Virus record (IMG/VR): IMGVR_UViG_3300036939_000018
Location: 1-59,205 of that record
Reading direction: 5' to 3' (one strand)
From: a virus
Length of the DNA: 59,205 bases
Positions 14,510 to 59,136 of the stretch are shown one piece after another. The notes beneath the pieces were generated by a model. The model had not been told where the DNA came from and ran no database searches. It worked only from the letters and a program-made list of their open reading frames with translations. The stretch's first letter is position 1; every line of letters begins with the position of its first letter. Made by a program: the position numbers and the translations under genes.

Positions 14510-14525
14510 TGTTTATGAGCAACAA

Positions 14526-14678: not shown

Positions 14679-15521
14679 ATGTCTAACTTTAGCATAGAAC
14701 AAATAGAGAGTGAACTCTCTAAAGAAGTGCGCTGCGATGATAAAGGTAGAGGTTTTTTCACCGTTAAGGGTGCAGCTCGTCTTGCAGATATTGATGATAG
14801 TAGCTTGGGTAAAAGCCTTGGAACAGGGGCGGCGCTACAGCCGTCTAAAATGGCTAAATTCCTTATCTCAAAAGGGTTTGATGGGGCGGCGTTGCCAAAA
14901 TGGAGAACTGAGGGGATTCCCGATCAGGCAGTTCATAGCATCTTAGAATACTTTACTTTTGAAGCTGGAAGACATTGCACCGAAAAGGCCAAGGCAGCCT
15001 TCCGGTTTGTAGGATGTTGGGGTATTCGTGACTTATCACACAAAGTTACTGGGTGGAAACCTGAGAGCAAAGAACCCAATGGCGATGAAGTAAAAGCCTA
15101 TGTTGATGCTGTCCTGAAACAACTGCTAGAGGAGCAGATACCCGAACGGGCTACTACTTGGCAATGCCGATACACAAAGCGGTTTTGGGAAGCGCTAGAG
15201 AATCTCTACGGACTCCATCAGGGTGATCAGGGGTGTGCGTCGTTCATCCGGCACTATATCTATGAGTACTTCCCAGTAGAAGTCCAAAACCGACTTGATC
15301 TCATCAACCCTATTCTCAGCACAGGTACACGAGCTAATCGCCAGCATCAGCACTTTGATGACACCTTGCTTGAACTGCTTAAAGTTCAGATTTCACATGT
15401 TACTTGGCTGTTGGAAGCATCTGCTGATCGTAAAGCTTTTAAACAATCAATGAAGAAAGTTAAAAAGCTTAACTTCAACTTTGGAACCAAAACACTTAAA
15501 GAGGGCGGAGCAAATGTCTAA
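14679..15521 (+). CDS. P63C-like phage regulator/antirepressor (280 aa)
   Basis: The C-terminal half (about residues 155-265) has the P63C layout: W-x(4)-TKRFWEALENLYGL, an IYEYFPVEVQNRLDLINP segment, TGTRANRQHQHF and a helical end. The N-terminal part (GFFTVKGAARLADID) looks like a winged-helix regulator. P63C domains accompany antirepressor-type DNA-binding modules, often in cyanobacteria and their phages. It overlaps the downstream Arc-like gene, so the two are probably one regulatory unit. Confidence 0.6.
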   Translation: MSNFSIEQIESELSKEVRCDDKGRGFFTVKGAARLADIDDSSLGKSLGTGAALQPSKMAKFLISKGFDGAALPKWRTEGIPDQAVHSILEYFTFEAGRHCTEKAKAAFRFVGCWGIRDLSHKVTGWKPESKEPNGDEVKAYVDAVLKQLLEEQIPERATTWQCRYTKRFWEALENLYGLHQGDQGCASFIRHYIYEYFPVEVQNRLDLINPILSTGTRANRQHQHFDDTLLELLKVQISHVTWLLEASADRKAFKQSMKKVKKLNFNFGTKTLKEGGANV

Positions 15522-15692: not shown

Positions 15693-15732
15693 ATTAAATG
15701 AAAATTACCCAAAATCATCCCCATCTCAGCTA

Positions 15733-15848
15733 GAGGATCTGCCCTCCGATCATACTGATGATAATCGACCTCTAAGCCTTATACAGTAAGCTTTTGAAAG
15801 AGCGTGAAACTCCTTTCTATACTCAAAACACACGACTAGTTTCACGCC
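15733..15848 (+). repeat. Dispersed element, copy 5 (short class)
   Basis: The final arms are GCGTGAAAC and GTTTCACGC. Both differ from the consensus GCGTTAAAC and GTTTAACGC by one base, and the changes compensate, so the stem stays perfect. Loop TCTATACTCA. Tandem with copy 6 in the 410-base gap before the polymerase gene. Confidence 0.9.
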
Positions 15849-15907
15849 GCCTTATGAGTCAAACGTTATCACAAATACTGCCTTCGGACTTTTACTTAAA
15901 TCCGGCA

Positions 15908-16024
15908 GAGGATCGCCCTCTTTCCCCTTCGAGGATAAAACCACCTCAAAGCATTACGCCGCAAGCTTTTGAGCAAGCGTTAAACCCACTCTATACTCTA
16001 CAAACGCACCACTAGCTTCACGCC
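15908..16024 (+). repeat. Dispersed element, copy 6 (short class)
   Basis: The central stem is very clear: CTCAAAGC and GCTTTTGAG. Loop TCTATACTCT; the closing arm TTCACGCC pairs imperfectly with GCGTTAAAC. Points to the polymerase gene, 40 bases downstream. Confidence 0.85.
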
Positions 16025-16042
16025 ACTTGTGTTAAAGTAGAG

Positions 16043-19000: not shown

Positions 19001-19490
19001 CGCAATACAGGACACGCTTAAAGAGTTAGATTTAATCTTGGAAAAAATCTCAGAATTTAAAGAGCCTCTACCAGTACCTAGTATTGAGTCTATTAAAGAC
19101 TTTTCGCTGTCTGAAAAACTTAAAGGAGAAAAAGAAGTGTTAGGGCTTTATGCATCAGGGCACCCACTAGATAGCTATAAGGTAGGATGCAACCCGTTCA
19201 ATGAGGTTGTCAAAAACAAACTGTTCATTAGCACTGTGCTAATCACTAGCGTTCGAGAAACCAATTCTAAGAATGGCACGATGGCATATTGTACCATTGA
19301 AGACAAAGAAGGGGCGACTATGACCCTTAAAGTGTTCAATGAAAAATGGATACTCTATAAGTCAATCTTGAGGGTTGACTCTATTCTGAGCATTACAGCG
19401 AAAGCTCAAATTTGGGAGAAGCGCTTAGAATTAATACTTGAAGCAGCATTGATTCCCACTAAAAACACTGAGGAAGAAGACGAGTTTTAA
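16065..19490 (+). CDS. dnaE: DNA polymerase III alpha subunit (1141 aa)
   Basis: Replicative C-family polymerase. The PHP domain starts with HCHSEYSLLDG (residues 9-19) and LTDHGVMHG. The palm has GRGSVGGSLVAYAMGIT (about 383-399), SMPDIDTD with catalytic aspartates (about 423-430) and KFDVLGLKTLT with the third aspartate (about 590). EVLGLYASGHPLDSY precedes an OB fold at about 1045-1120. The length is close to bacterial DnaE, so it looks complete. A lysine-rich linker (KKKKKN) near residue 975 is phage-specific. The gene has its own upstream region with two elements and a terminator behind it. Confidence 0.93.
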   Translation: MTRPFVSLHCHSEYSLLDGLSKVKELVKRAKELNHPAIALTDHGVMHGSIELYRNGLDEDIKPIIGCEAYLRDFAITSRLKDFSGDGDYKVKDRYHQLVLAQNPTGYKNLCKLTSIAHLGEGRGAKTSTAETSTKHKGWITLEELEQYSEGLIITSGCMAGIIPQCLKAGNPELADQIVEWYKKVFGDRFYIEIQDHAANDGSRELNLQLVALAQKHQVAIVATADNHYTKPCDKSAHDALLCINTKKLLSDEKRMRYEGAYWLPTGDEMLERLSAYLPYEIALEAIENTVKLAKQVEDYKLFRKPTPPRFSLPEGYDTPEFYVEELAYKGLRNRFKGSLPPQEYLERIDYELSIVNQMGFAEYFAIVEDLCSFARSKNIWLGIGRGSVGGSLVAYAMGITNIDPIPHGLLFERFLNPERRSMPDIDTDVCQERRGELIAYLSEKYGLKYVAQIATFGEMKSSSALKNTARVYNAQYQQFNEITKGIPKVRGKVPTLEKLISDRDTYAEFYDLYSNDKLLLDEEGQKTVSFKAVVDTAISLSGTVCSVGIHAAGVVIGWCPLDEVMPLMKGSEGEIVSQYQMQDVEDLGLIKFDVLGLKTLTVMRKAIEAIERVEQEVINLDEINYNDSRVFRFLGSGKTDGIFQFEGYGGDILRGIQPKNLNDVSAANTLNRPQCTDKEIDIAYIKRSQGIEPISYLIPALEPILKETLGLPINQEQLLRICCDIAGFSLGEADNIRRGIGKKDLTKIAALEQQFLEGCARNWHDEAVAKELFSVIRAGSEYGFNKSHSMAYGIIAYQTAWLKYYYYAYFMAALISLEKVTKKKKHEDDTNKRTQYIINAKKEGVVFLPPHINESDRDFLVLDSLTIRWGLTAITGVGDTLIDAIVLERQYNGAFKDWNDFNKRVKTNKKSLTALVKSGALDCLGLNRRQMLEYKPIMTAYKKAKEDRAKELLKWQKEADKITSEPSTSKKKKKNSQDAIQDTLKELDLILEKISEFKEPLPVPSIESIKDFSLSEKLKGEKEVLGLYASGHPLDSYKVGCNPFNEVVKNKLFISTVLITSVRETNSKNGTMAYCTIEDKEGATMTLKVFNEKWILYKSILRVDSILSITAKAQIWEKRLELILEAALIPTKNTEEEDEF

Positions 19491-22303: not shown

Positions 22304-22427
22304 AAAGCTGTCGCGTGTGGAGACTGTTAATCAGCATAGTGCTTTCTAAGTTTCAACGCACTAGCCCTAGCGGATTGGCAATATTGGAGATTAGCAGCCT
22401 AGAGGAATGTGATAACGGTAATTTTTT

Positions 22428-22553
22428 GGCGTTAGACTTGTGGTGCTGTAGGTGTATATAGGGAAGGTTTAACGCAAGTCGAAAGTCTTACAGAGTATAG
22501 AATTCAAGTCGATTACCATTGATACCATTGAGGGGTTCTTGAGGGCGATCCTC
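22428..22553 (-). repeat. Dispersed element, copy 7 (long class)
   Basis: On the minus strand GAGGATCGCCCTC opens and GTCTAACGCC closes; loop CTATATACAC. Points toward the ferritin-like gene. A terminator for the gene behind it sits at its right edge. Confidence 0.85.
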
Positions 22554-22556
22554 AAG

Positions 22557-22588
22557 AAAAAACCCCGGTCGTGATACCGGGGTTTTCT
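22557..22588 (-). terminator. Terminator of the DUF3850 gene
   Basis: AACCCCGGT and ACCGGGGTT pair around CGTGAT, with A-run left and T-run right, so it could work in both directions. Confidence 0.8.
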
Positions 22589-23063: not shown

Positions 23064-23340
23064 ATGGATTACAGCTTATAAAAATGCCAAAAACAATGTT
23101 CAATATAATGAAAGTGACGAAGAAACCGCTTAAGCATAAAAAATAAAATGCCTCAAACACTTGCTCTATAAGTGTTTGAGTCAGCGCATTGGCTGTGACA
23201 CTACTACTGCATACGTCTGAAGTGAAACCGACACAGTGTCACAGCCTAGAACCCTGATTCTCTTGTGTCACGGTACAGCAGTTTTGAAGAGTTTGTGACA
23301 TCTTGACCAAAATCCTGTGATAACATCAATTATTAGTTAA
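23064..23340. promoter_or_regulatory. Intergenic region with two hairpins and TGTGACA boxes
   Basis: No gene was seen. It holds a hairpin CTCAAACACTT/AAGTGTTTGAG (23152-23180), a long inverted repeat GGCTGTGACACT/AGTGTCACAGCC (about 23191-23246), a palindrome GACACAGTGTC and further TGTGTCAC and TGTGACA boxes at about 23265 and 23294. The repeated box suggests a binding-site cluster, perhaps an operator or origin. Confidence 0.45.
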
Positions 23341-24109: not shown

Positions 24110-24169
24110 GCAAACCAAAGATGCTGTTTTTGTTGCAACAGGAGTAAACGGCGTAACACGGTGGTAAAC

Positions 24170-24295
24170 AGCGTTAGCCCCCCATGTTGTTTATGAGTAT
24201 AGAAGGGACTCTAACGCCGGGGTGTGAGTCTGAAAGTGTTGTGCTGTAAGGATTTGGCGCTTACGGATGCCTCAAGGATATGGGGGGTGATCCTT
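24170..24295 (-). repeat. Dispersed element, copy 8 (long class)
   Basis: AAGGATC opens and CTAACGCT closes on the minus strand; loop CTATACTCAT; arms GCGTTAG and CTAACGC. Points to the MazG-like gene. A 72-codon open frame (24211-24429) runs through it but is probably not a gene. Confidence 0.85.
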
Positions 24296-24326
24296 TGTTC
24301 TTCTGTAATTGCATTATTTCCCACGC

Positions 24327-24444
24327 ATATCGTCGAGTTGGGTAGACGATATTCCTCGTTTTTGAAAGCCTTGCCCAGTAAAGCTTTCGGCGACTTACAT
24401 ATGTAAAGTTTTGTTTCATATCGTGCCATTAAGTAGACAATACA
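24327..24444 (-). repeat. Block shared with 48029-48146
   Basis: On the minus strand it begins ATTGTCTACTTA, then TGGCACGATATGAAAC, and ends with the hairpin ATATCGTC...GACGATAT. The same succession occurs on the plus strand at 48029-48146. Both blocks lie next to the AGGATC end of a long-class element (copies 8 and 19). It may be a decayed short gene or a non-coding extension of the element. Confidence 0.55.
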
Positions 24445-24479: not shown

Positions 24480-25922
24480 ATGACGAATATAGTTTGGGTC
24501 AAAAGAGGCGACAAAGAGAAGGTGGACTCAAGACAAGTTTTAGACGTTTTAGGTTTAGATAACCACAAGCAATGGATGTACAAGTATGTTTTCAAGGATG
24601 TTGAAGGTTTTGAGGCTGAAACAGGAGATGAACTTGAAGTAGATTATGAGCGAAACAAAAGAGGTAAACCTACAAAATTTGCTTGGTTCACAGAGAAGCA
24701 AGTTTATTTTGTAATTGCAAAGGCAAGGAACACTATAGACGCTCTTGATGCCAAAAAAACTCTTGCTCAAATGTTCGCCAATCTCAGACAAAGTGAAAAA
24801 GAAAATAAAACAAAAATGACTACAACAACAGTATGGCAAGATCGCCTAAACAAAATAGCCGTCCCAGTGATGAATGACTCTAAAGTAGGTGAAGTTCAAC
24901 TTTTTTCTCCGCAAGCGTTGAAGCACATAGAAAACAAGTTTTCCCCAGATGAGAAGTTCATCCAGTTTTTAAGCAATCTAGAAGCAGAGACGGGGTATAT
25001 TCTGCCTTGGAACTTTGATTTTGGTTCTTGTGGCATTCTGACTTATCCGCCAGAATATAAAAGCTACATTGATACGTATCGAAAAATCACAGAGATAGAA
25101 GATGCGCGGTATATCTGCATGTGGGGAAGTGAAGAGTTACCAGCTTTACCTGATGAAGAATACTTAGTGCCTGCTAATGATATACCACCTACAGGAGGTG
25201 TATGGCTTGACGAGACACGCCTTCATAAGGAAGTCTGGCAAGAGATTATTGAGTGTGTAAAAGACGTTGTAGAGGCATACAACGACCCTCAGCGCAAAGA
25301 AAAATATGGCATCCCCTCTCAAAAAGAACTCGAAACTGATTACGAGAACCTAGAACAGGACACCATATTCCTGACAAATACACTTCAAGCTTACAACAGG
25401 TTTCAAGAATTTAACGAGGAAACCCCTAAGGTCTTAGGTTTCCAAGTTCATAAGGATTGGCTTCTGTGGTTAGAGTCCGACAACAATATAGCTTCAGCCA
25501 TGAGAAAGTTCTATCTAGGTTCGTCTGCTGAAGTTTTTTTCTCTATCACTAAAGAACAAGATGAAGATGGAGATGAATATTATAAAACTACACCAGGGTC
25601 ATTTGTGATTGTCTATCCTTTCTGGGCCAATATCAAAGATGGTAAGTCCTGGTATACAGAGATGGAACCCAACCCAGAATATAACCCTGATGCCCCACTA
25701 TTTCAAACAGTGCGATTCTATGATGAGAAATACGAACCGCTATTCGACTGGTATCTAGAGAACATCTGGCTTCCTCAGCACTCTCTTAAGTTCTTCCAGG
25801 CTACCGACCCTAAAGGCTACCCTCAACTAGCCATGTTGCTTGCCGACTTGCCCTCTAACACTAATCTCCCCAAGATGTTTCTGAAGGCAGCACAAAAGCA
25901 GCTGGCGGCTAGTCAAAGCTAA
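24480..25922 (+). CDS. Rha-like phage regulator with novel C-terminal domain (480 aa)
   Basis: Residues 1-105 follow the Rha regulatory pattern: VDSRQVLDVLGLDNHKQW, then RNKRGKPTKFAWFTEKQVYF and a helical end. Residues about 140-480 are a long acidic, aromatic-rich region that I do not recognise. A 479-residue paralogue at 36.5 kb shares both parts, including GFQVHKDWL-x-WL, MRKFYLGS and WLPQHS-x-KFF. Rha proteins act as phage regulators or antirepressors. A terminator follows. Confidence 0.6.
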   Translation: MTNIVWVKRGDKEKVDSRQVLDVLGLDNHKQWMYKYVFKDVEGFEAETGDELEVDYERNKRGKPTKFAWFTEKQVYFVIAKARNTIDALDAKKTLAQMFANLRQSEKENKTKMTTTTVWQDRLNKIAVPVMNDSKVGEVQLFSPQALKHIENKFSPDEKFIQFLSNLEAETGYILPWNFDFGSCGILTYPPEYKSYIDTYRKITEIEDARYICMWGSEELPALPDEEYLVPANDIPPTGGVWLDETRLHKEVWQEIIECVKDVVEAYNDPQRKEKYGIPSQKELETDYENLEQDTIFLTNTLQAYNRFQEFNEETPKVLGFQVHKDWLLWLESDNNIASAMRKFYLGSSAEVFFSITKEQDEDGDEYYKTTPGSFVIVYPFWANIKDGKSWYTEMEPNPEYNPDAPLFQTVRFYDEKYEPLFDWYLENIWLPQHSLKFFQATDPKGYPQLAMLLADLPSNTNLPKMFLKAAQKQLAASQS

Positions 25923-32393: not shown

Positions 32394-33923
32394 ATGTCAG
32401 TAGTTATTGACAAACAAAAAATACTTTTAAACCGAATAAAGCTATTAGAAAAAGCGTCAAAAGACAAAAGTTTTCGACAGTTATTTAAAATAAAATGTTC
32501 TAGAGATATTATATTTTTTTGCAATAGTATTTGCTGCACTTACGACCCGCGCAAAAAACCTGCGATGATTCCTTTCATCCTCTTTCCAAAACAAGAGGAA
32601 TATTTGCTATGGAGAAATGAAAGACGCGCCAAAAAAGAACATGGCTTAGTAGAGAAAAGCAGGGATGCTGGTCTCACATACCTCAACGTTCTCTCACAAA
32701 CTCATGCATGGCTATTTGAGAGCGGTTATTCAGGACTATTGGCAAGTCGTAAGGAAATACTGGTGGATCGCCGTGGTGACCCCTCGTCTATCTTTGAGAA
32801 AATAAGAATCATTCTCAGATATCTACCAATCTGGATGTTGCCCGAGGATTTTAGATGGTCTGAACATGATAACTATATGCGTCTCATTAATCCTGAAAAT
32901 GGAAATGTGATAACTGGGGAAGCAGGATCATCCATTGGGAGGGGAGGAAGATCTTCTGTAGTAGACCTAGATGAGTTTGCATTCCTTGAACATCCTGAAC
33001 AAGTAGACGCCGCTGTATCACAAAATAGTGATTGTGTAATCTATACCTCAACTCCTAATGGGATAGGAAATCTGTTTTACAAAAAACGCCATAGTCACAG
33101 AATGCCAGTGTTCACTATGCGATGGACAGATCATCCTGAAAAAGATCAGCAATGGTATGACAAACAAGTCAGAACTCTTGACCCTATTGTATTAGCTCAA
33201 GAAGTAGACGTTGATTACACGGCGTCCGCAGAAGGAGTATACATATTAGCCAAGTGGGTGCAAGCTGCGATCGCCAATCCTCTCCCTATGCTCCCAATGT
33301 ATGGTGAAAATGTGGCAGCAGTAGACGTTGCTGGCAGTGGACAAAATAAGACCGTATGGGGGGCACGTAAAGGCCCAGTAGTGTATCAGATCAGAGAGTG
33401 GCAAGGTAAAAACACTACTGAGTCTGGCTATGATGTGCGCGACCTGATGATTGAACATGAATGCACACATCTAACCTATGACGCCGATGGCATTGGCTCG
33501 CAGTTGTGCAATGCCTGGATAGGCGATAACTTACCTTTTAGTGTGTATCCCTTTCATGGCAATGGAACGCCCTCTGAGCGTGTCTGGGAGGGAGAAGACA
33601 AAACAAGTAAGCAGAAGTTCAGGAACGCACGGGCGGAGGCTTATGGTCTTATTCGTGAGAGGTTCAGGAAGACTTATGAGAACTTGCATGGCATAAAGTC
33701 CTATCCGGTTGAAGACTTGATTAGTATCCCTAATCACCCTACTCTCATTGCACAGTTAAGCGTCCCCAAGTATAAGAGGGACGCTAGTGGCAAATATTTG
33801 ATCGAGTCTAAAGAAGATATGAGAAAGCGGGGTATAGATTCTTGTGACCACGCGGATTGTCTAGCCTACCTGTTTTCGCCAACAGAAAGTGCTATTGATG
33901 AGTTTGAAGCGTGGCTAAGCTAG
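32394..33923 (+). CDS. terL: Terminase large subunit (509 aa)
   Basis: The packaging motor ATPase/nuclease. The ATPase loop is VEKSRDAGLTYL at about residues 85-96, a variant Walker A as in other phage terminases; Walker B is SVVDLDEFAF at about 187-196. The nuclease domain shows AVDVAGSGQ (about 308), YDADGIGSQ (about 361) and DSCDHADCLAYL (about 481) with the metal-binding aspartates. Length is typical. Confidence 0.88.
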   Translation: MSVVIDKQKILLNRIKLLEKASKDKSFRQLFKIKCSRDIIFFCNSICCTYDPRKKPAMIPFILFPKQEEYLLWRNERRAKKEHGLVEKSRDAGLTYLNVLSQTHAWLFESGYSGLLASRKEILVDRRGDPSSIFEKIRIILRYLPIWMLPEDFRWSEHDNYMRLINPENGNVITGEAGSSIGRGGRSSVVDLDEFAFLEHPEQVDAAVSQNSDCVIYTSTPNGIGNLFYKKRHSHRMPVFTMRWTDHPEKDQQWYDKQVRTLDPIVLAQEVDVDYTASAEGVYILAKWVQAAIANPLPMLPMYGENVAAVDVAGSGQNKTVWGARKGPVVYQIREWQGKNTTESGYDVRDLMIEHECTHLTYDADGIGSQLCNAWIGDNLPFSVYPFHGNGTPSERVWEGEDKTSKQKFRNARAEAYGLIRERFRKTYENLHGIKSYPVEDLISIPNHPTLIAQLSVPKYKRDASGKYLIESKEDMRKRGIDSCDHADCLAYLFSPTESAIDEFEAWLS

Positions 33924-34346: not shown

Positions 34347-34715
34347 TTATGCTTTAGCGGTTAAATCAATTGCGCGGTACTGTCCGGTATAGATAGACTT
34401 CATCAATGAACCAGAGACGCTGTTGGCCCAGTACTCTACATGCCAAGGGGTCAGCTTATTTAGTGCGTTCTCAGCAGCTTTATGGGTTTTATAGACGTTA
34501 AAACATCCTCCTAATTTTGTTACTATTCCCCAGACTCTACTGCCTGTTTTCTTGTCCAACAGTTCCATCACTGTTAATTTGATAACGCTCTTACTTACGA
34601 ATCTTGCACCCTTGCCAGCGACAACCACAAACCAGCATGTTGCCCACTCCTCGCACCGGATGATCCGGCTTGCTTCGATTTTCAGGTGTTGGGCGATCTG
34701 GTTTAGGGCGTTCAT
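34347..34715 (-). CDS. Hypothetical protein (122 aa)
   Basis: Not recognised. Contains a WATCWFVVVAGKGARFVSK strand region and AAENALNKLTPWHVEYW. The leader has the full module: TTGACG promoter, CAAGCGAGG and GGATAA before the ATG. Confidence 0.6.
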   Translation of the reverse strand: MNALNQIAQHLKIEASRIIRCEEWATCWFVVVAGKGARFVSKSVIKLTVMELLDKKTGSRVWGIVTKLGGCFNVYKTHKAAENALNKLTPWHVEYWANSVSGSLMKSIYTGQYRAIDLTAKA

Positions 34716-34739: not shown

Positions 34740-34769
34740 AGTCTAATCTTATTGTTATTCAATCGTCAA
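34740..34769 (-). promoter_or_regulatory. Promoter, TTGACG type
   Basis: Minus strand TTGACG, 18 bases (ATTGAATAACAATAAGAT), TAGACT, then AAGCGAGG before ATG 34715. Confidence 0.75.
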
Positions 34770-34816
34770 TAGTTCAGGCAAAAGATTTTAACCGTAGTCG
34801 TACTATGTTCATATAC

Positions 34817-34943
34817 GGCGTTAAGATACCAGTCTGTTGTTGAGTATAGGAGGGAGTCTAACGCCTTAGTGCAAGGTCTAAAAGTCTTGTCCTATATGAC
34901 TTCGATGCTCAGCAACATCAAAAGGATCTTGAAGGAGATCCTC
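34817..34943 (-). repeat. Dispersed element, copy 9 (long class)
   Basis: Closely similar to copy 10, including the flanks. Opens GAGGATCTCCTTCAAGATCC; loop CTATACTCAA; closes CTTAACGCC. Points to the gene at 34347-34715. Confidence 0.9.
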
Positions 34944-34958
34944 CAGGAGATAGGCACT

Positions 34959-34990
34959 AAAAAGCCGCCTTACTATAAGGCGGCTTTTTC
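34959..34990. terminator. Terminator between cassettes
   Basis: AAAAAGCCGCCTTA and TAAGGCGGCTTTTT pair; symmetrical, so it may work in both directions. It ends the minus-strand gene at 35010-35207. Confidence 0.8.
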
Positions 34991-35009
34991 AAAATTAACT
35001 TAGCTTACG

Positions 35010-35207
35010 TCATACTACGTTATTGGTTTTTCTCCAATACTTGGTTAGCCATACTTCAAACTTTAGATTTTCGTGCTCCACAATTATTGTCCCTGGTTCC
35101 GATGACTTACCTGACATAGATACATCTATAGCAAACCATTCATCATCATGTAGTCTGGCTGCTAACTTTGCGGCTTGATTCAGTAAGTCTTCAGTAATTT
35201 GTGGCAT
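35010..35207 (-). CDS. Small hypothetical protein (65 aa)
   Basis: A helical start (EDLLNQAAKLAARLHDDEWF) and a strand-rich end. Single-gene cassette with its own promoter, leader and terminator. Not recognised. Confidence 0.55.
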   Translation of the reverse strand: MPQITEDLLNQAAKLAARLHDDEWFAIDVSMSGKSSEPGTIIVEHENLKFEVWLTKYWRKTNNVV

Positions 35208-35235
35208 GGTCTTATCCTCATTTGCTTGTAAATCC

Positions 35236-35265
35236 AGTCTAATCTCTTTGTTATTAAATCGTCAA
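35236..35265 (-). promoter_or_regulatory. Promoter, TTGACG type
   Basis: TTGACG, 18 bases (ATTTAATAACAAAGAGAT), TAGACT on the minus strand, followed by CAAGCAAATGAGGATAAG before ATG 35207. Confidence 0.75.
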
Positions 35266-35312
35266 CAATTCAAGCAAGAGATTTCACCCGTTGTCGTACT
35301 ATGTTCATATAG

Positions 35313-35439
35313 GGCGTTAAGAACCCAGTTTGTTGTTGTGTATAGGAGGAAGTCTAACGCCTTGAAAGATAGGCTAAAAGTATTACTGTGTATGACTTCA
35401 ACACTCAGCAACATCAAAAGGATCTTGAAGGCGATCCTC
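35313..35439 (-). repeat. Dispersed element, copy 10 (long class)
   Basis: Near-duplicate of copy 9; the similarity continues about 70 bases on the promoter side. Opens GAGGATCGCCTTCAAGATCC; loop CTATACACAA. Confidence 0.9.
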
Positions 35440-35452
35440 CAGCAGATAGGAA

Positions 35453-35486
35453 CAAAAAAGCCGCCCTTTACGAGCGGTTTTTTTTA
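35453..35486. terminator. Terminator between cassettes
   Basis: AAAAAAGCCGC and GCGGTTTTTTTT pair around an imperfect inner part. Placed as at 34959. Confidence 0.7.
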
Positions 35487-35508
35487 CTTTAGATTGACGT
35501 ATATCGGA

Positions 35509-35697
35509 CTATAGTCTACCAGTGCTGTAGAGCTTAGTTAAGTGCTTATCTGCTTGATGCTGTAACTCGTTTCCTAACTCATCTCTCAGAGCTGTTATTT
35601 GCGCCTCTAGGGCTTCTACCTCTGCTAGCTTACGTTATAGTTCTGTCTGGGCTTGTGTGACTTGTGATTGAATCTGGAGGGCCTTGGTGAAGTCCAC
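35509..35697 (-). pseudogene. Small coiled-coil gene with an in-frame stop
   Basis: From GTG 35697 the frame encodes VDFTKALQIQSQVTQAQTEL, then TAA (35635-35637), then continues RKLAEVEALEAQITALRDEL to TAG at 35509. The two halves form one coiled coil, so a single C-to-T change of a CAA codon explains the break. The promoter and leader upstream look intact. Confidence 0.6.
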
Positions 35698-35726
35698 TGT
35701 AAGTACCTTTTCTCGCTTGCCTTACT

Positions 35727-35756
35727 AGCCTAATCTTACCGTTATATAAACGTCAA
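35727..35756 (-). promoter_or_regulatory. Promoter, TTGACG type
   Basis: TTGACG, 18 bases (TTTATATAACGGTAAGAT), TAGGCT, then CAAGCGAGAAAAGG on the minus strand, before the broken gene at 35697. Confidence 0.7.
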
Positions 35757-35803
35757 TTATCCGAGCCAAAAGATTTATCCATACTCAGTACGAGTAGGTA
35801 TAC

Positions 35804-35931
35804 GGCGTTAAGAACCCTGGTTGTTTATGAGTATAGAAGGAAGTTTAACGCCTGTTTTTAGCGCCTAAAAGCTAATCACAGCAAGCCTTACAGCGTTCTT
35901 GTCCCTCAGATGATATTGGGGCTGATCCTCT
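35804..35931 (-). repeat. Dispersed element, copy 11 (long class)
   Basis: Opens AGAGGATCAGCCCCAATATC, loop TTCTATACTCATAA, closes CTTAACGCC. Shares its whole left half with copy 12, only 310 bases away. Confidence 0.9.
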
Positions 35932-35988
35932 GCTCAGCTTGGCTCCTAGAAGATAATACGAGTGGAGTACAAGAATTACCTAAAGACA

Positions 35989-36219
35989 ATGGAATCAGAA
36001 CACAAGCTCCATGTATGGCTAACAGCATTGATCGTTGTTTTTTTTATTGGGACTATGTATTTAGACTTGCAGCACACCGAAGCAAGGTTTAAGCAAGTAG
36101 CAGAGCAAGAAGAAAGATTACACGCAAACTACGTCACTCAGTGTGCTTTAGCAACTGAACACAACACAGCTTGGTGCGAAATGCGATGGATGGAAGTAAT
36201 ACACAATCCCGTGCCCTAA
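35989..36219 (+). CDS. Small single-pass membrane protein (76 aa)
   Basis: MESEHKLHVW, then one hydrophobic segment (LTALIVVFFIGTMYL, residues 11-25), then a charged helix (QVAEQEERLHANY) and two cysteines. An in-frame GTG at 35962 is a possible earlier start. It lies between copies 11 and 12. Could be a superinfection-exclusion or lysis factor, but nothing proves this. Confidence 0.5.
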   Translation: MESEHKLHVWLTALIVVFFIGTMYLDLQHTEARFKQVAEQEERLHANYVTQCALATEHNTAWCEMRWMEVIHNPVP

Positions 36220-36242
36220 CCTCACTATAATCCGACTACAGA

Positions 36243-36369
36243 GGCGTTAGTCAACCCTGTTGTGTATGAGTATAGAGGAGAGTCTAACGCCTGTTTTTTA
36301 GCCTCAAATCCAATCACAGCAAGCGTTACAGCGTTATTGTCCCTCAGATGATATTGGGGCTGATCCTCT
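36243..36369 (-). repeat. Dispersed element, copy 12 (long class)
   Basis: Arms GGCGTTAG and CTAACGCC; loop TCTATACTCATACA. Points at the 3' end of the membrane protein gene, one of the orientation exceptions. Confidence 0.9.
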
Positions 36370-36397
36370 GCTGAAAGAAACCTGACTTGTTATCACG

Positions 36398-36432
36398 TTC
36401 GATAATAGAAGATTGAATCTTACATTATCGAA
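36398..36432. promoter_or_regulatory. Inverted repeat before the second Rha-like gene
   Basis: TTCGATAAT and ATTATCGAA flank AAGATTGAATCTT, itself palindromic. A second version, AATAGAAGGTTAAATCTTGC, lies about 90 bases nearer the gene (about 36491-36510). Likely operators of the regulator gene at 36549. Confidence 0.45.
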
Positions 36433-36548
36433 TAACCGTACGTTGGCGGCTGAAACCTATATACAGTAATCCTTTTCATGATTGTTACAAAATAGAAGGT
36501 TAAATCTTGCAATATGGACTACAATGTAAGAGTAGAGTAAAAAATCCA

Positions 36549-37988
36549 ATGACTAGCACAGACATAGAATTTGTTCAACGCGGCGGTAAAAATAAAATCG
36601 ATTCTCGTTTGCTAGCAAAAAATCTAGAAATAGACAGGCATAAGCAATGGCTTCAGGATCTAATTTTTTGCAATCCTGAGAACTTCATTGTTGATACGGG
36701 CGATGACATAGACATCGACTATCAAAAAAACAAGCGGGGCAAGCCAACCCGTTTCGTCTGGTTCACTGAGTCGCAATTCTACTACATCATATCGAAGTGT
36801 AATAACACACCACAAGTTACTAGGATTAAGGCCATGACAGCACAGAAGTTAGCCGAATTAAGAAACAAGTCTGGAGAAGTCCCTTGCTATAAGGCTGTCT
36901 GGGAACACAACACCAAGCGGTTATTAGTCAACAAAATAAATGATAAGGGATTGACCAATCCTGAAAAATACGTCTTTTATCACGAGAAAAACATTGAAAA
37001 CAAGTTCTCTCCAGATGAGTACTTTACAAAGTTCCTGTCAACACTTGAGCGTGAGACAGGTTATGTATTGCCGTGGTCGTTTGCGTTTGATGAGGGGGAA
37101 TGCTTACCAGTGCCACCTCAGTATTTTGAAAAGCTCAAGCAATACGACGACATCTCACGGCACGAAGATGAAGATGTTACCAATATGTGGGGAAATGAGG
37201 ATTTACCGTTTATACCCTTTGCTTACTGCTCAGAACGGCAAGCTGCAAACTGCTGGATAAATGCACCAGATAATCTTATGGAGGTGTGGAATGAGTTTGT
37301 TGAGAAGGCTTGCAAGTGTGTTGACGCCTACAACGATCCGAACCGAAAGGAGAATTATGGACTACCAACACACAAGGAAGTAGAGGAGGGAACTTATCCG
37401 TGTCCACCTGAAGATCCTGATTTTGTTACACCGCCTCTCGCTGAGCTTCTAGAGGTATCCGAAAGACTTAATGAGATAAACGACAATCGGATTAAGATCC
37501 TGGGCTTTCAAGTCCATAAGGACTGGTTAGACTGGTTGTCTAGTGATGAGCAGATGGCTCAATCAATGCGAAAGTTCTATTTAGGTTCTGACCGCCCTGT
37601 TGTTTTCCGGGCTTATCGTCCTTATTGTGATTTTGAAGACAACCCACAAATTAGTAGTGACACATTTGTTATTGAGTATCCGCAATGGGCAACAGAAGTA
37701 GACGGTTACACTCTATCCCAGCGTTCTGATTATTATTTTTTAGACACAAAACCAAACCCAGATGCACCACTATTTCAGACTATTCGCCTTTACGACAACA
37801 AATACAAAGTCCTTTTTGACTGGTATCTATACTATCTCTGGTTGCCACAGCACTCTATGAAATTCTTTGAGCAATGCGATCCGGCTGGTTATCCTCAGTT
37901 GGCTAAAGTAGTACAAGATTTGTCACAAGACAGCCGATTACCCATGATGTTCGTTCAATCCGTACAGAAACAATTGACAGGCACGTAA
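36549..37988 (+). CDS. Second Rha-like regulator with novel C-terminal domain (479 aa)
   Basis: Paralogue of the 24.5 kb gene over its full length. N terminus: FVQRGGKNKIDSRLLAKNLE, DRHKQWLQDL and KNKRGKPTRFVWFTESQFYY. C-terminal part shares ENKFSPDE, GFQVHKDWLDWL, MRKFYLGS, NPDAPLFQT and WLPQHSMKFFE. ATG 36549 is chosen from the alignment with the paralogue; the frame stays open 14 codons further. The conserved C-terminal part is the same unrecognised domain. Confidence 0.6.
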   Translation: MTSTDIEFVQRGGKNKIDSRLLAKNLEIDRHKQWLQDLIFCNPENFIVDTGDDIDIDYQKNKRGKPTRFVWFTESQFYYIISKCNNTPQVTRIKAMTAQKLAELRNKSGEVPCYKAVWEHNTKRLLVNKINDKGLTNPEKYVFYHEKNIENKFSPDEYFTKFLSTLERETGYVLPWSFAFDEGECLPVPPQYFEKLKQYDDISRHEDEDVTNMWGNEDLPFIPFAYCSERQAANCWINAPDNLMEVWNEFVEKACKCVDAYNDPNRKENYGLPTHKEVEEGTYPCPPEDPDFVTPPLAELLEVSERLNEINDNRIKILGFQVHKDWLDWLSSDEQMAQSMRKFYLGSDRPVVFRAYRPYCDFEDNPQISSDTFVIEYPQWATEVDGYTLSQRSDYYFLDTKPNPDAPLFQTIRLYDNKYKVLFDWYLYYLWLPQHSMKFFEQCDPAGYPQLAKVVQDLSQDSRLPMMFVQSVQKQLTGT

Positions 37989-38561: not shown

Positions 38562-38611
38562 TACTGTTGTGCCACCTCCCACAATCCCACCAATCAACCC
38601 GACCTGACAAG

Positions 38612-38726
38612 AGCGTTAGACTATCCTGCTTTTCTTGTGTATAAGGAAGGTCTAACGCCGCTCAAGACGTTGATATATGGTCATCTGAGGCTGATTATCC
38701 CCACAATGATCGAGGGTGAGATCATC
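38612..38726 (-). repeat. Dispersed element, copy 13 (short class)
   Basis: Perfect final arms GCGTTAGAC and GTCTAACGC; loop CTTATACACAAG. Opens GATGATC instead of GAGGATC. Points to the 38167-38499 gene. Confidence 0.85.
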
Positions 38727-38777
38727 ACAGCAGCAATACGTCAGTTTACGCTTATTTACGTCTCTGCTAATTATAAA

Positions 38778-39317: not shown

Positions 39318-39349
39318 AAGACGCCTCTTTTTTTAGGCGTTTTTTTTTG
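39318..39349 (+). terminator. Terminator after the 38835 gene
   Basis: GACGCCT and AGGCGTT surround a T-rich loop, then a ten-T run. Element copy 14 begins directly behind the T-run. Confidence 0.8.
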
Positions 39350-39464
39350 CGTTAGACCACCTCTGTGGATTTGAGTATAGAACAGGGTTTAACGTCGCCT
39401 ATAAGCCCTACTATATAAGCGTTTGAACCTTATTATCCTCGCTATGTTCCGAGTCTAGATCCTC
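39349..39464 (-). repeat. Dispersed element, copy 14 (short class)
   Basis: Opens GAGGATCTAGACTC and closes GTCTAACGC on the minus strand; loop TTCTATACTCAAAT. Sits between two plus-strand genes, so it is an orientation exception. Confidence 0.85.
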
Positions 39465-39509
39465 AACAGCACCACCAGTTTAAAAGGGCGTAAAATAGGT
39501 TAAACCCTA

Positions 39510-40919
39510 TTGCATCCCATCATGACCGCAACCAACACCGACGCTCTCATTGCTCGCCTAGAAGCTGAAAATGAAGCCTTGAGATTGGATGGTATCCTCA
39601 AGAACCTTGCCAGCAAGATAGGGGTAATAGGAGCTGATCCACGAACCGCCGCCACATTTGGCACAACAGAAACTCCTACTCTACAAGAAATTGATGAGTG
39701 GTTCGAGTCAGACAAATTCTTTGCCAAACTTATAGAAGACTTGCCCCGATTAGAATCCAAGAAGTGGGCCATTATCAGCGTTACTCACGATCGTGATACT
39801 GGAGACATGACTCAAGCCTTACAAAAACTTATAGACAGTACTGCTCCTATTTTTACTACTGCTCGCATCACAGCCAGAAAATATGGTGGATCTGCAATAG
39901 TTCTAGCAGCAAACGACGGCGTCGAAGATACAACTCAACCTATAAGAAAAGAGACACTCAAGAGTATTCGGTTAGTAGGAGTGCGTGAAGCTGGTATAAG
40001 CCAACAGATTATGGCTAGAGAGTGGGGAACAGATCCCATGAGCGAATATTATAATCAGCCAACACTCTATCAGTTCTCAGATCCAGGTATGACATTAGTA
40101 CATCCCGATCGCCTTCTATTGTTTAAGAGTGTCGATGTGGGCGATCGCAGAAGCAGGGAAGCTTATAACGGTTTCTCTGTGCCACTGCTTAAGCGCTGTA
40201 AGAACGAGTTGGTAAACTATAGAGGAGCACTTGATACTATAGCCACAGCACTGCTCAGCTTCAATAGATTAGTGGTTAAGCTCAAGAACTTAGTCGCTTT
40301 ACTGGATGCCAAGAAGCAAAAAGAGATAGAAGCACGTCTACAACTTTACCAATACACTGCTGGTGTAATGAGCGCTTATGTAGGCGATCCTGAAGATGTG
40401 ATTGAGTATCTTAACAGAAGCTTTGTCGGAGTCAACGAGATGTTGCAATGGATGAAGCTTGACCTAGGAGCCTGTGCTGATGAACCTCACACCACATTTT
40501 TCAACGAGTCACCTTCTGGCAATACTTCTGGTACTGATCAAAAAAACAACCTTAATAATATTGTTGCAACAAGTCAAGAATTACATATTAGAACGCCTCT
40601 AGAGAAGCTTATAGATTTGTGGTGCCACTGTAAGGAGTCACCAACAAAGGGTATTCCGCCAAAATCTTATGAGCTGACATTCCCAGTGGTCTATGAACTT
40701 AACGAGACAGAACGTGCAGCGTTGAAGAAGACTGAGGCAGAGACTTATGCCCTACTTCTCAAAGGCAATGGACAAGAGGGAGTGGTCAATCCTATAGAGG
40801 TTGCAGAAGCTATCTCTAGGGATGTTCCCCTTGCATCAACAATTGACCTAGAAGCGCGTCTGAGGGCTAAAGCAGAGTTTGAGCAAGAAGGAATGGTATT
40901 GAGTCAAGAATCGCCTTAA
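39510..40919 (+). CDS. Portal protein, DUF1073-like (469 aa)
   Basis: Shows the DUF1073 portal pattern: DEWFESDKFFAKLIEDLPRLESKKW near residue 65, TTARITARKYGGSAIVLAAND around 115, a conserved QFSDPGMTLVHPDRLLLF near 185 and FFNESPSGNTSGTDQKN around 330. The portal is the dodecameric DNA entry ring. It lies about 5.5 kb downstream of the terminase genes on the same strand, with accessory genes between. Confidence 0.75.
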   Translation: MHPIMTATNTDALIARLEAENEALRLDGILKNLASKIGVIGADPRTAATFGTTETPTLQEIDEWFESDKFFAKLIEDLPRLESKKWAIISVTHDRDTGDMTQALQKLIDSTAPIFTTARITARKYGGSAIVLAANDGVEDTTQPIRKETLKSIRLVGVREAGISQQIMAREWGTDPMSEYYNQPTLYQFSDPGMTLVHPDRLLLFKSVDVGDRRSREAYNGFSVPLLKRCKNELVNYRGALDTIATALLSFNRLVVKLKNLVALLDAKKQKEIEARLQLYQYTAGVMSAYVGDPEDVIEYLNRSFVGVNEMLQWMKLDLGACADEPHTTFFNESPSGNTSGTDQKNNLNNIVATSQELHIRTPLEKLIDLWCHCKESPTKGIPPKSYELTFPVVYELNETERAALKKTEAETYALLLKGNGQEGVVNPIEVAEAISRDVPLASTIDLEARLRAKAEFEQEGMVLSQESP

Positions 40920-41539: not shown

Positions 41540-41548
41540 TATGACATA

Positions 41549-41664
41549 GCGTTAGACTAGTGGTCTGAATTTGAGTATAGAGGAGAGTTCAATGCAAGCT
41601 GTAATGCTTATGGGGTATGGGATTGAGGTTGATTGTTGTGTAAAGGGTGTTGAGGGAGATCCTC
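41549..41664 (-). repeat. Dispersed element, copy 15 (short class)
   Basis: Opens GAGGATCTCCCTCAAC; loop CTCTATACTCAAAT; closing GTCTAACGC directly before the zinc-ribbon start codon. The opposite arm GCATTGAAC is degenerate. Confidence 0.8.
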
Positions 41665-41707
41665 TGTCAAAATGGGTGAGTGGTCAGGCATTTTGCTATA
41701 ATTAGGG

Positions 41708-43065: not shown

Positions 43066-43081
43066 TAGCTCTGTTGATAGC

Positions 43082-43198
43082 GGCGTCAAAGCACGGGTGT
43101 GTTTGTAGAGTACAGAGTAGTTTTAACGCCTGCTGTAATGCTTATCTGGTAAGGCTTTGAGGCAAGTTTATCATTAGATGTTCAAAGCCCCGATCCTT
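43082..43198 (-). repeat. Dispersed element, copy 16 (short class)
   Basis: Opens AAGGATCGGGGCTTTG; loop CTGTACTCTACAAA; arms GGCGTTAAA and TTTGACGCC pair with one U-G wobble if the minus-strand RNA is considered. Central part CTCAAAGCCTTACC. Lies between two plus-strand genes (exception). Confidence 0.8.
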
Positions 43199-43224
43199 TG
43201 CTCGAAAGCAAAAGCTTATGGTAT

Positions 43225-44544: not shown

Positions 44545-44629
44545 TTTTCTGTATTCCTAAACAATTGTGGAAAATGTTATTTTACTTCCTATTAGGTTAG
44601 ATGCGATAGTGCCACCGGATAGATAAGCA

Positions 44630-44745
44630 GAGGATCAGGGTTGTGAACATACTAAGGACAAACACATTCAAAGCCTTGCTGGATAAGCGTTTTGTGCGGC
44701 GTTAGACCTTCTTTATACACAAGAAACAACTGGACTGTCTAACGC
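44630..44745 (+). repeat. Dispersed element, copy 17 (short class)
   Basis: Perfect final arms GCGTTAGAC and GTCTAACGC; loop TTTATACACAAG. Points to the small secreted-peptide gene at 44818; its promoter begins 18 bases further on. Confidence 0.9.
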
Positions 44746-44762
44746 TGTTTTTCGGACGCTCC

Positions 44763-44964: not shown

Positions 44965-47766
44965 TTAAGCTACTGTTATCAAACCTGTCGGCTCTAACAT
45001 CTCAGGTACCCATAACACAGCACTTATAGAGATAGTACCATCGGGTTGCGGATCGATTGTACTGATCCGATAGGTGCGCTTCTGAGAAGCTTGCTTCGTA
45101 ATTACTATATAATCCCCTGTTCGGTTTTCACCAGGGCCTTGCAGAGGGCCAGGGAGTCCATATACTCTTAAAAACACTTGGTCACCCGAAAGATAAGCAT
45201 TTACAGGCACGTTAAGTTGCATCCCCCCGTCACCTAGTCTAAAAATACTCGCCTCATAGCCCAACAAATACTCAACGCCTATTTTTACAGGTGCAGAGAG
45301 CAAAATGTCACAAACAACCCCCCCGTTATAAGTTTCTGTAAGTGTAGTAACGCTTTGAACAAAACCACTACAATCTTTTTCAAATTCTGTGAGTAAATGT
45401 TGAACAATAATCAAGTCTCCAGGCTGTAAATATGCCCCCTGTAACCCCGTCTTAAAGGTTATTGCTCTATCTTGTAGCAAGCGAGTCTTGAGGTAGACTT
45501 GTCCTACCTTTTCAGCTTGGTAGAAATTGGTCACGGAGTCGAGATTAAGACTTTCTTCTACCACTGGCACTTCACCGTTATAGGCCGCCATAGTTTGAAT
45601 AGTTAGAGTGGCGGTGTTAAAATTTGCATCACTACCATCTTTATAAGAAACAATCAGTGTGTTCAGGTCTTGAGATTCCCCAAATTCTTCTGAGAAAGAA
45701 CCCTCTATTATATTGCTCGCATTGAATAAGCCACGCTTAGGCTGGTCGGGTCTTTCGGGTATTAGTGCAAAGCGTCCACCAATACGACTAGGAAAAAGAA
45801 GAGAACCTAAGCTTTCTCTTGTAGCCCACTGTGACCAAGCAACGGGTTCAGTTATCTGTCCGTCCCAAAAGAATTGGCGACCAATGCAATAAATTTTAGA
45901 CTCCATGATGCTGTTGTAATCTACAAAGAAGTCAGCATCTATGAAATTGCCTAGACCACCATCAAAACTTGTGAGTGTGTCTACGTATATGTCAGGAAAA
46001 TAATTAGAGCAGCCATAATGATAAATTAAGAACCGATCACCTGGCTCCCAATTGCAAGACTGGGCGGTAACTATGTGAGCAGGGTTAACTCCTGTATAAC
46101 CAGTGATAGTAGACTCTGTTCGTTTGTCTAAGTTTCGCAAAATAAACCCAACCTGAAGACAATTGGGTAGAGGGATAATAGCACTAATATATCCTGCATT
46201 ATCAAACATTATGTTGTCTTGAGAGCCTGGTGCTGCAATGTAGGAACCCCCTATTACTTTCATGTTAGAACGTGCTTGACGCACCAGCATTTTCATATTG
46301 GGAGTCCCCTGTAACTGAGCGGAAGCTGTTGCTATAAGTCCTACCATTGGCATATTGGGATAACCTACAACAGACAACTGACCGATAGCACTCGGATATA
46401 CTATCTCGTTGACGCTGGTGATCTGACAGGGAGCACCTCCTTGCGCAGCCCATTGAGTGCGTTCTTTGTAGTCATTATTTGCTCTAACATTTTCAGTAAT
46501 GCCCCCCTCCATTGAGAGTACCCAGCCTGTCCCAACTGGATAAGAACGGATAACTCCGTCATCCCTCAATGCATAACTTAAATCATTGGTGGGTTGTTCT
46601 TCTTGTGTTATGGTGCGTAGTTCTAGTTTGTATTTTCCGAGGGGTAAGTTTGCTATTGAAAAAGTACGGCGTAAGTTAGTACGAGTTTTTGATTTAATGT
46701 GAATGCGAGCAAGCTTAATAGGGACTCCGCTTGGAAGCTGCGTGAGATAAATATCCCACACGTTAGCTAGATCGACAGTTTCAATATTTTTGTCTTCGTC
46801 TTGTTTGCTTGCCCAGTACTGGGCATTTAGATTAACTTGAATCTCGTTAATACGTTTTGTAGTAGTGTATTTTACATCCCATACAGCATAAATGGGTAGG
46901 TTGTCAACCTGGTTAATAACTTTATCTGCAACTACTGAAGTACTGGTTTTGGCAACAACCCGAAAACTTACCCCATTATGCCGATACTGGTCAGCAGGGC
47001 TGAACGCAGGGACATCCTCTTCTTTCAAGACAATGGTGCTGCTGTTTGCATTGGCTTCAATTGTTACGCGGCTGTCTAGACCCATCTGATTCTGAGCACC
47101 AGGACTAATAGCTTGTGAGTAGTAGGGGAATTCTGGAAATGAGCCTTGATTAGGTGTGCCAAGAGAAGTTTTCGTGACAATATCCGCTACAAAAAAGTTA
47201 TCACGTGGTTGATCATTAATGGTTATTTTGTTCTCGTCAATTGCGCCTATCTTCCCATAGCCCAAAACTGATAACTGATAAAGCTTCTGGTTGCCCATGC
47301 GGGTTTCTACACGACTGTTAACAACAAACCCCGCAGTAAGAACGCCGCCTGTGGGATTCAAGTCTCTATTTCCATATAAGAGAGGGATAGGCCCACCAAT
47401 GCTTGGTAGAGAAGCGACACTATCAAAGCCATAAGCTTGAGCAGGTGTTTTCTCTTCCTCTTCTTTCTTGCCCTTAGAGCCAAACAACCGGAACCCGATC
47501 GCCGCACCCATAAGTGCCCCCACAATCCCGCCGACGCCCAACAATGGCGCAGCAAAGAACCCAATAGCAGCAAACGCAAGTATTGCTAGTACCTTGCCAT
47601 TCTGAACGTCGTAAAATACTGCATTTGGATCATTTGCTAGTTTGTTTAAAGTACGTTGCCTTAAGTCATGATGAAATATTGCAAGCTCTTGTAAATCTTC
47701 AGGCGTTAACTTGACGTTGTGACGCTCCTGGAGATAAGCGAGAAAATCGTAGTCTTGGGGAAGCAT
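44965..47766 (-). CDS. Tail hub/tip protein, lambda gpJ-like (933 aa)
   Basis: A glycine-rich hydrophobic segment (AAIGFFAAPLLGVGGIVGAL, about residues 61-80) precedes VASLPSIGGPIPLLYGNRDL and VSVLGYGKIG-type phrases (LSVLGYGKIG), the usual N-terminal marks of gpJ-like central hub proteins. The remaining 700 residues are beta-rich. It forms the tail tip and contacts the receptor. It lies downstream of the NlpC-like and gpL-like genes on the same strand, preserving lambda L-K-J order. Confidence 0.75.
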   Translation of the reverse strand: MLPQDYDFLAYLQERHNVKLTPEDLQELAIFHHDLRQRTLNKLANDPNAVFYDVQNGKVLAILAFAAIGFFAAPLLGVGGIVGALMGAAIGFRLFGSKGKKEEEEKTPAQAYGFDSVASLPSIGGPIPLLYGNRDLNPTGGVLTAGFVVNSRVETRMGNQKLYQLSVLGYGKIGAIDENKITINDQPRDNFFVADIVTKTSLGTPNQGSFPEFPYYSQAISPGAQNQMGLDSRVTIEANANSSTIVLKEEDVPAFSPADQYRHNGVSFRVVAKTSTSVVADKVINQVDNLPIYAVWDVKYTTTKRINEIQVNLNAQYWASKQDEDKNIETVDLANVWDIYLTQLPSGVPIKLARIHIKSKTRTNLRRTFSIANLPLGKYKLELRTITQEEQPTNDLSYALRDDGVIRSYPVGTGWVLSMEGGITENVRANNDYKERTQWAAQGGAPCQITSVNEIVYPSAIGQLSVVGYPNMPMVGLIATASAQLQGTPNMKMLVRQARSNMKVIGGSYIAAPGSQDNIMFDNAGYISAIIPLPNCLQVGFILRNLDKRTESTITGYTGVNPAHIVTAQSCNWEPGDRFLIYHYGCSNYFPDIYVDTLTSFDGGLGNFIDADFFVDYNSIMESKIYCIGRQFFWDGQITEPVAWSQWATRESLGSLLFPSRIGGRFALIPERPDQPKRGLFNASNIIEGSFSEEFGESQDLNTLIVSYKDGSDANFNTATLTIQTMAAYNGEVPVVEESLNLDSVTNFYQAEKVGQVYLKTRLLQDRAITFKTGLQGAYLQPGDLIIVQHLLTEFEKDCSGFVQSVTTLTETYNGGVVCDILLSAPVKIGVEYLLGYEASIFRLGDGGMQLNVPVNAYLSGDQVFLRVYGLPGPLQGPGENRTGDYIVITKQASQKRTYRISTIDPQPDGTISISAVLWVPEMLEPTGLITVA

Positions 47767-47830
47767 AAGGTAGAGGGTGAGATGATCTACTATGCTATCG
47801 TTTACGTCACTTCCGGCGCGTTAGGTAGCA

Positions 47831-47958
47831 GAGGATCGAAGCTTCGATCCTTTTGAGGACAAAGTAGCTGAAAGCCATACACATCAAAACTTTGAGGCTT
47901 TATATTATGGCGTTAGACCCGTCTCTATACTCATAATCACACCTGTTTGTTAACGCTG
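47831..47958 (+). repeat. Dispersed element, copy 18 (long class)
   Basis: The opening hairpin is nearly perfect: AGGATCGAAGCTTCGATCCT. Loop CTCTATACTCATAA; closing GTTAACGC. First of two elements in the 622-base gap before the ParB-like gene. Confidence 0.9.
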
Positions 47959-48028: not shown

Positions 48029-48146
48029 TATTGTCTACTTAGTGGCACAATATGAAACATTCTTTAACATTTTATGAATCGCTAAAAGCCTTACTCCACA
48101 AGGCTTCTAGAAATAGAGCGATATCGTCTACCCAACTCGACGATAT
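48029..48146 (+). repeat. Block shared with 24327-24444
   Basis: ATTGTCTACTTAGTGGCACAA, then AAAAGCCTTACTCC and the hairpin ATATCGTC...GACGATAT. Coding potential is lost early here (stop after 11 codons), while the hairpin is kept. Lies upstream of element copy 19. Confidence 0.55.
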
Positions 48147-48177
48147 TTAAGAAAATAAAGCCATAGTCGATTAACAA

Positions 48178-48304
48178 AAGGATCAACCCCAATATCCTTT
48201 AGATGTCCTGAGCTGTCAAACCCTTACGGCATAATGCGTTCAGCCCTCGATAACGGGCGTTAAACTCTCCTCTATACTCATACACAACAGGGGGTTCTAA
48301 CGCC
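48178..48304 (+). repeat. Dispersed element, copy 19 (long class)
   Basis: Opening hairpin AAGGATCAACCCCAATATCC; loop CTCTATACTCATACA; arms GGCGTTA and TAACGCC. Points to the ParB-like gene, with the promoter 25 bases further on. Confidence 0.9.
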
Positions 48305-48329
48305 GTTATCCTGTGCTTGTCCGAAAGTA

Positions 48330-58807: not shown

Positions 58808-58811
58808 CAAT

Positions 58812-58937: not shown

Positions 58938-59007
58938 TCCAGAACAGGGGAGGGGGACATATACCAAAACGGTACATATTAATATATAAAATAACGGGGG
59001 TATCCTA

Positions 59008-59124: not shown

Positions 59125-59136
59125 GCCGAATACACA

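Follow-up and report, generated by a model that had tools for sequence, protein, structure and literature searches.

Stem-loop and dyad elements adjoin promoters and changed gene junctions in a putative cyanophage contig and its relatives

Twenty-one copies of an intergenic element, in which a ~50-bp stem-loop (P1) is combined with a 29-bp dyad and with a 3′ segment that ends in GATCCTC, are dispersed over a 59,205-bp viral contig, and related element families occur in four other contigs rich in the HIP1 motif. The elements are linked to outward-facing promoter boxes in four genomes, are absent from the gene junctions that the contig and its nearest relative have conserved, and have been copied between places. 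Our preferred reading, held tentatively, is that they are composite modules lying upstream of accessory-gene promoters and serving, in addition, as seams for cassette exchange.

The window, i.e. the whole stretch of DNA analysed, is an entire IMG/VR record (G000, 59,205 bp) classed as linear. A 4,219-aa ORF in the relative G001 is matched in part by the first gene fragment (69-395) of the window, so the contig is probably incomplete. The HIP1 motif (GCGATCGC) is present in 10 copies where 0.41 are expected, an enrichment that points to a cyanophage with HIP1-rich cyanobacterial hosts; G001, G002, G005 and G006 have 34, 4, 49 and 26 copies. A terminase search identified G001 (121,774 bp, 76% identity), the nearest relative, and the fragment G002; a head-protein search identified G006 (90,554 bp, 56%), and G005 was recovered through the dyad pattern. 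Positions 1-130 and 90414-90543 at the ends of G006 repeat 130 bp at 99% identity, and this contig may be complete although it is classed as linear. The landmarks of the window are:

7906-8898 (-), major head protein
9754-11040 (-), maturation protease
16065-19490 (+), DNA polymerase
32394-33923 (+), terminase
39510-40919 (+), portal
44965-47766 (-), tail protein J

A weight-matrix scan of the right arms recovers the 21 elements that had been claimed from an earlier, sequence-only reading of this DNA, 11 on the plus and 10 on the minus strand, each with the full architecture. Their lengths are near-constant, at 121-123 bp or 132-133 bp, the longer form mostly reflecting an insert of 9-10 bp between stem-loop and dyad.

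E01, 2739-2861 (-), element
E02, 3260-3382 (-), element; TTGACG box 4 bp from its 3′ end, serving gene 2906-3196(-)
E03, 3442-3564 (-), element
E04, 14388-14510 (-), element left of gene 14679
E05, 15728-15849 (-), element
E06, 15903-16025 (-), element upstream of the DNA polymerase promoter box
E07, 22427-22558 (+), element
E08, 24169-24300 (+), element with the 9-10 bp insert
E09, 34816-34948 (+), element; ~250 bp including promoter and terminator in common with E10
E10, 35312-35444 (+), element; pairs with E09
E11, 35803-35935 (+), element; in common with E12 over its entire length
E12, 36242-36373 (+), mosaic element
E13, 38611-38731 (+), element; P1 in common with E17 over 0-50 only
E14, 39347-39469 (+), element
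E15, 41547-41669 (+), element; G001 and G002 have an element at the same place
E16, 43081-43203 (+), element with gene 43316; both absent there in G001 and G002
E17, 44625-44747 (-), element
E18, 47826-47958 (-), element
E19, 48173-48305 (-), element
E20, 58811-58942 (+), element
E21, 59003-59125 (-), element

The 29-bp dyad reads CTnnAAnnCTTA-n5-TAAGnnTTnnAG, with a spacer that varies among copies. P1 has no T-run and keeps a fixed spacing to the dyad, and all copies are intergenic. Relatives carry at least 35 (G001), at least 8 (G002), 16-18 (G006) and about 7 or 8 (G005) elements. Each lineage has its own P1 arm: GGCGTTAGAC in the window, ACGGaACTAC (also CCTACAGT and CCTCCAGTA) in G001 and G002, TTCCGACATGTT in G006, where a dyad lies on each side of P1, and TTGCATATACCT in G005. 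No other contig in the collection contains the arm pair of G006. Common to the phage sets is a dyad consensus (ggCTnAAAnncTTannnnGtAaGgnTTtgAg, aGCTnaAanCCaTAtncAGtAAGCATTAgAGGT, AGCTaggAnntatacannGtAanggnTntAGc); the element ends vary within the window and differ wholly in the relatives. The strict stem pattern has no true copy elsewhere in IMG/VR and GTDB genomes. Five genome matches were set aside as chance, four of them Calothrix-type and representing a single identical stretch, which in L087 lies within an 816-aa ORF. A blastn search of the region against 50,697 phage records gave no match.

A second module, in which a similar dyad comes after the inverted repeat ATATCGTC..GACGATAT, is present in two inverted copies at 24327-24442 and 48029-48146, just past E08 and E19. 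Further inverted repeats, each followed by dyad-like sequence, occur at 23100-23245(-) (GCTGTGACACT) and 36395-36485(+) (TTCGATAAT), so the total number of modules in the window may exceed 21.

The two symmetrical parts of the element differ in how they vary. In P1 of 43 G001 and G002 elements, two-sided changes at paired positions number 38; shuffles give 14.4, with none of 500 as high, although they leave relatedness in, so that these changes are not independent events. The signal is lost when the partner is slid, and the covarying pairs include some G-U pairs. We infer that P1 forms a hairpin in RNA or single-stranded DNA. The dyad has 25 two-sided changes against 26.7 in shuffles, i.e. no covariation, and its conservation is mirror-symmetric in three phage sets. 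Symmetry without covariation does not indicate a helix and is more simply explained by double-stranded DNA that a dimer would occupy; the dyad is most likely a putative binding site of a dimeric DNA-binding protein. An RNA leader was considered and dropped, since the dyad does not covary, folding of ten whole elements is scarcely stronger than that of their shuffled versions (z-scores -2.4 to 0.2) and orientation is independent of the genes.

In Calothrix sp. PCC 7716 (G013, loci L135-L154), the one genome counted, the dyad pattern with up to two mismatches occurs 49 times and the reversed pattern 9 times; the matches are mostly outside long ORFs, some of them within this genome's own repeats. 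Around none of the other IMG/VR matches to the dyad pattern (L114-L124) is there an element like those of the window.

The earlier reading had most elements (16/21) aimed at the next gene, with a promoter between the two and a terminator closing the gene. By our count the downstream gene is on the element's own strand in 14 of 20 cases, because elements sit in divergent gaps, and the elements are not gene-directed. Among gaps of at least 100 bp in the window, an element is present in all six divergent ones, in 8 of the 17 between genes of the same direction and in one of the five convergent ones. Element and gene strand are the same in 4/9 same-direction gaps of the window and 7/15 of G001; agreement in about half of the cases argues that the module is not a gene-oriented leader. 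Elements occur in same-strand runs that follow genomic region: minus from 2.7 to 16.0 kb, plus from 22.4 to 43.2 kb and minus again from 44.6 to 48.3 kb. The matching regions of G001 have mostly the same element strand, with switches near the DNA polymerase and near the tail genes. Replication-linked polarity was rejected as the cause of these runs, as GC skew does not switch with element strand.

Outward-facing TTGACR boxes lie within 100 bp of 11/21, 13/35, 4/8 and 10/16 elements in four genomes (the window first), where 3.4, 4.5, 1.0 and 1.9 are expected at random places, and inward-facing boxes lie within the same distance of 5, 5, 0 and 0 elements. Since the random control includes coding DNA, the contrast between outward and inward boxes is the better evidence for promoter linkage. 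In the window the boxes are more often on the 5′ side of the element (9) than on the 3′ side (3), and about half of the elements have no box within 100 bp. Terminator-like hairpins, separate from P1, adjoin about 7 of the 21 elements, so that gene-closing terminators are not general, and a fixed order of element, terminator, promoter and gene is not supported.

The stretch at 34.7-36.4 kb is as it had been described, with four plus-strand elements (E09-E12) around four small genes or ORFs: two intact minus-strand genes, one broken ORF and a membrane-type protein.

34347-34715 (-), small accessory gene, 122 aa, no family match
34740-34769 (-), TTGACG promoter-like site, 47 bp from the E09 5′ end, reading away into gene 34347-34715(-)
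35010-35207 (-), small accessory gene, 65 aa, no family match
35236-35265 (-), TTGACG promoter-like site, 47 bp from the E10 5′ end, reading into gene 35010-35207(-)
35515-35697 (-), small ORF broken by one in-frame TAA
35962-36219 (+), membrane-type protein, 85 aa, one hydrophobic stretch, no family match

P1 alone, whole elements, or elements together with promoter and terminator have been copied between places. In pairwise identity profiles, similarity ends sharply at element or sub-element edges. The pair E13/E17 shares nothing beyond P1 (positions 0-50), and the same holds for 53334/112221 and 22460/54104 in G001. Sharing covers the whole element in E11/E12, spans about -100 to +150 in E09/E10 and includes the second dyad module in E08/E19. 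E12 is a mosaic whose P1 is 90% like that of E19 and whose 3′ part is 96% like that of E11. E08 and E12 have similar P1 sequences, and the next genes after them, 24480-25922(+) and 36507-37988(+), are paralogues with 43% identity. Mosaicism was also tested by correlating 5′ and 3′ halves, but a control in which the split was placed within P1 failed just as badly, and that test was dropped in favour of the identity profiles.

Comparison with related phages, from which cassette gain and loss with breakpoints inside the elements had been expected, gives a bias at junctions and the sharp copy edges described above, but caught no exchange at base level. None of the 16 junctions conserved between the window and G001 has an element in either genome. 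Of the junctions that have changed, elements occupy 15 of 58 in the window and 25 of 110 in G001 (one-sided p = 0.016 and 0.022, on our own gene calls). Gap length is a confounder, and p for the window rises to about 0.09 when only gaps of at least 100 bp are compared. Change does not require elements, since 43 of the 58 changed window junctions are free of them. Synteny unbroken at the elements is thus not what the relatives display. Terminase and portal genes are separated by 5 bp and no element in G006, by 1.8 kb and three elements in G001, by about 3.2 kb and 3-4 elements in G002 and by 5.6 kb, six elements and different genes in the window. Gene 14679, together with 15481, lies at another place in the G001 genome, again with an element on its left. 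This gene (14679-15521(+), beside E04) has weak matches to the P63C domain and to a BstA-type abortive-infection family. Pairs of elements that occupy matching positions in the window and in G001 resemble each other no more than randomly chosen pairs do, and base-by-base comparison therefore cannot separate gain and loss from divergence. Exchange between close relatives was not caught because the relatives are too distant for base-level breakpoints; the search found none closer than G001, with its 76% identical terminase.

In the model that we prefer, recombination through shared stretches, during phage replication or co-infection, would move small genes, and each moved gene would bring its promoter and control site along. 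The dyad would be read by a protein of phage or host, and P1 would act as a hairpin in RNA or single-stranded DNA; the module may also affect regulation or expression. A bolder version, which we think distinctly improbable, would place the dyad at the core of an undescribed system of cassette exchange that employs a protein of the host and serves phages of HIP1-rich cyanobacteria. The host-type chromosome would contain scattered similar dyads, each phage would hold tens of copies, each with a lineage-specific hairpin copied as a 50-bp unit, and genes would enter and leave between sites.

The chief rival to the promoter-module reading remains that of dispersed operators or silencers, in which a dimeric phage or host regulator occupies dyads genome-wide, like L5 stoperators or φC31 operators, and the junction bias merely reflects promoters sitting where accessory genes sit. 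It is compatible with the same anatomy, and we regard it as possible though rather unlikely. In its favour, each genome has many copies, which are uniform in that genome but differ from those of other genomes; the dyad has the character of a protein site; outward promoters are adjacent in four genomes; and every divergent gap of at least 100 bp carries an element. However, a unit of 121-133 bp with a 50-bp stem-loop far exceeds known dispersed operators, P1 is copied as a unit without its flanks, element strand is independent of transcription, and no candidate repressor was identified. Less likely again is a mobile palindromic parasite, with P1 a REPIN- or MITE-like hairpin copying itself beside dyads and gene turnover a by-product. 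P1 similarity does end sharply on both sides in unlinked pairs, its arms are inverted repeats, larger relatives hold 16 to 35 copies and REPINs are known in Nostoc punctiforme (PMC3116915). Yet P1 is held at fixed spacing to the dyad in copies that are all intergenic, linkage to promoters is kept across diverged phages, and the Y1 transposase (PF01797) is absent from G001 and from the window, whose record may be incomplete. Two Y1 genes in G006 (17555-17902(-) and 86948-87313(-)) adjoin TnpB-type genes, as in IS605 elements; these and a TnpB gene in G001 (L092:15179-16381(-)) are apparently plain insertions unrelated to the elements. The G001 TnpB was also rejected as a guide-RNA system, its Pfam domains being IS605-type and its ends looking unrelated to the elements.

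Site-specific recombination sites of the attC, pdif or res kind, with an unseen and possibly host recombinase, seem very unlikely to us. The 29-bp dyad can be read as 11-7-11, the length is near that of attC or res, elements run on one strand and the dyad is present in a Calothrix genome too, but none of the five genomes encodes a serine recombinase, a tyrosine recombinase (PF00589) is likewise absent from G000, G001, G002 and G006, similarity edges fall mostly at P1 or element ends and not at one crossover point, and the dyad spacer differs among copies. The least probable of these alternatives is that the elements are transcribed at many places as a family of structured non-coding RNAs: the covarying P1 arms with some G-U pairs would suit it, but the conserved dyad does not covary, the ten whole elements fold poorly (see above), orientation is not tied to genes and there is no Rfam match.

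Among known systems, the closest in layout are the PeSLs of T4-type phages, repeated intergenic modules of promoter and stem-loop in gene-shuffling regions, which are held to provide seams for gain and loss of small genes (PMC4503421). As with PeSLs, a stem-loop lies beside a promoter in intergenic DNA (for about half of the window elements) and the elements are concentrated where gene content shuffles between relatives. In contrast to PeSLs, the stem-loop does not terminate the gene before it, the module includes a 29-bp dyad, the order of promoter and stem-loop is not fixed and no sequence kinship is known. The primary PeSL papers are reportedly those of Arbiol (2010) and Comeau (2014). The PeSL-like reading of the earlier note thus retains its cassette borders and promoters and loses its gene-aimed elements and, for all but about a third of copies, its terminators. 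As no sequence kinship is known and the stem-loop is not a terminator, we do not claim PeSL membership; the elements look like an independent counterpart of T4-type cassettes.

The stoperators of Cluster A mycobacteriophages (20-30 sites per genome) are likewise dispersed, homogeneous within and drifting between genomes, but are asymmetric 13-14 bp sites oriented with transcription (PMC6550527), whereas the elements are 121-133 bp long with a symmetric dyad and no such orientation. The ESAS of Cluster K mycobacteriophages are also phage-group-specific imperfect inverted repeats, located ahead of a subset of genes, directly at start codons and with a 13-bp SAS (PMC3203893); the elements are found beside promoters and independent of gene strand. 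REPIN/RAYT systems and small dispersed cyanobacterial repeats are hairpin-forming inverted-repeat units copied around intergenic DNA (PMC3116915). P1 resembles them in this respect, but lies inside a larger, fixed, promoter-linked module, with no Y1 transposase in the window or G001. Integron attC and pdif sites are intergenic and border exchangeable genes. The elements share this position and a similar size or symmetry, but have several edge positions, no recombinase in the window or G001 and no conserved GTTRRRY and RYYYAAC ends of the attC type.

How accessory genes stay expressible during exchange has been worked out for few tailed-phage groups. Here, in an unrelated group, stem-loop, protein-type dyad and promoter are joined in one module, which marks junctions of differing gene content. 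Such modules provide a means of recognising cassette borders in the genomes of cyanophages, and the similar dyads in a host-type chromosome point to a protein that can be sought directly.
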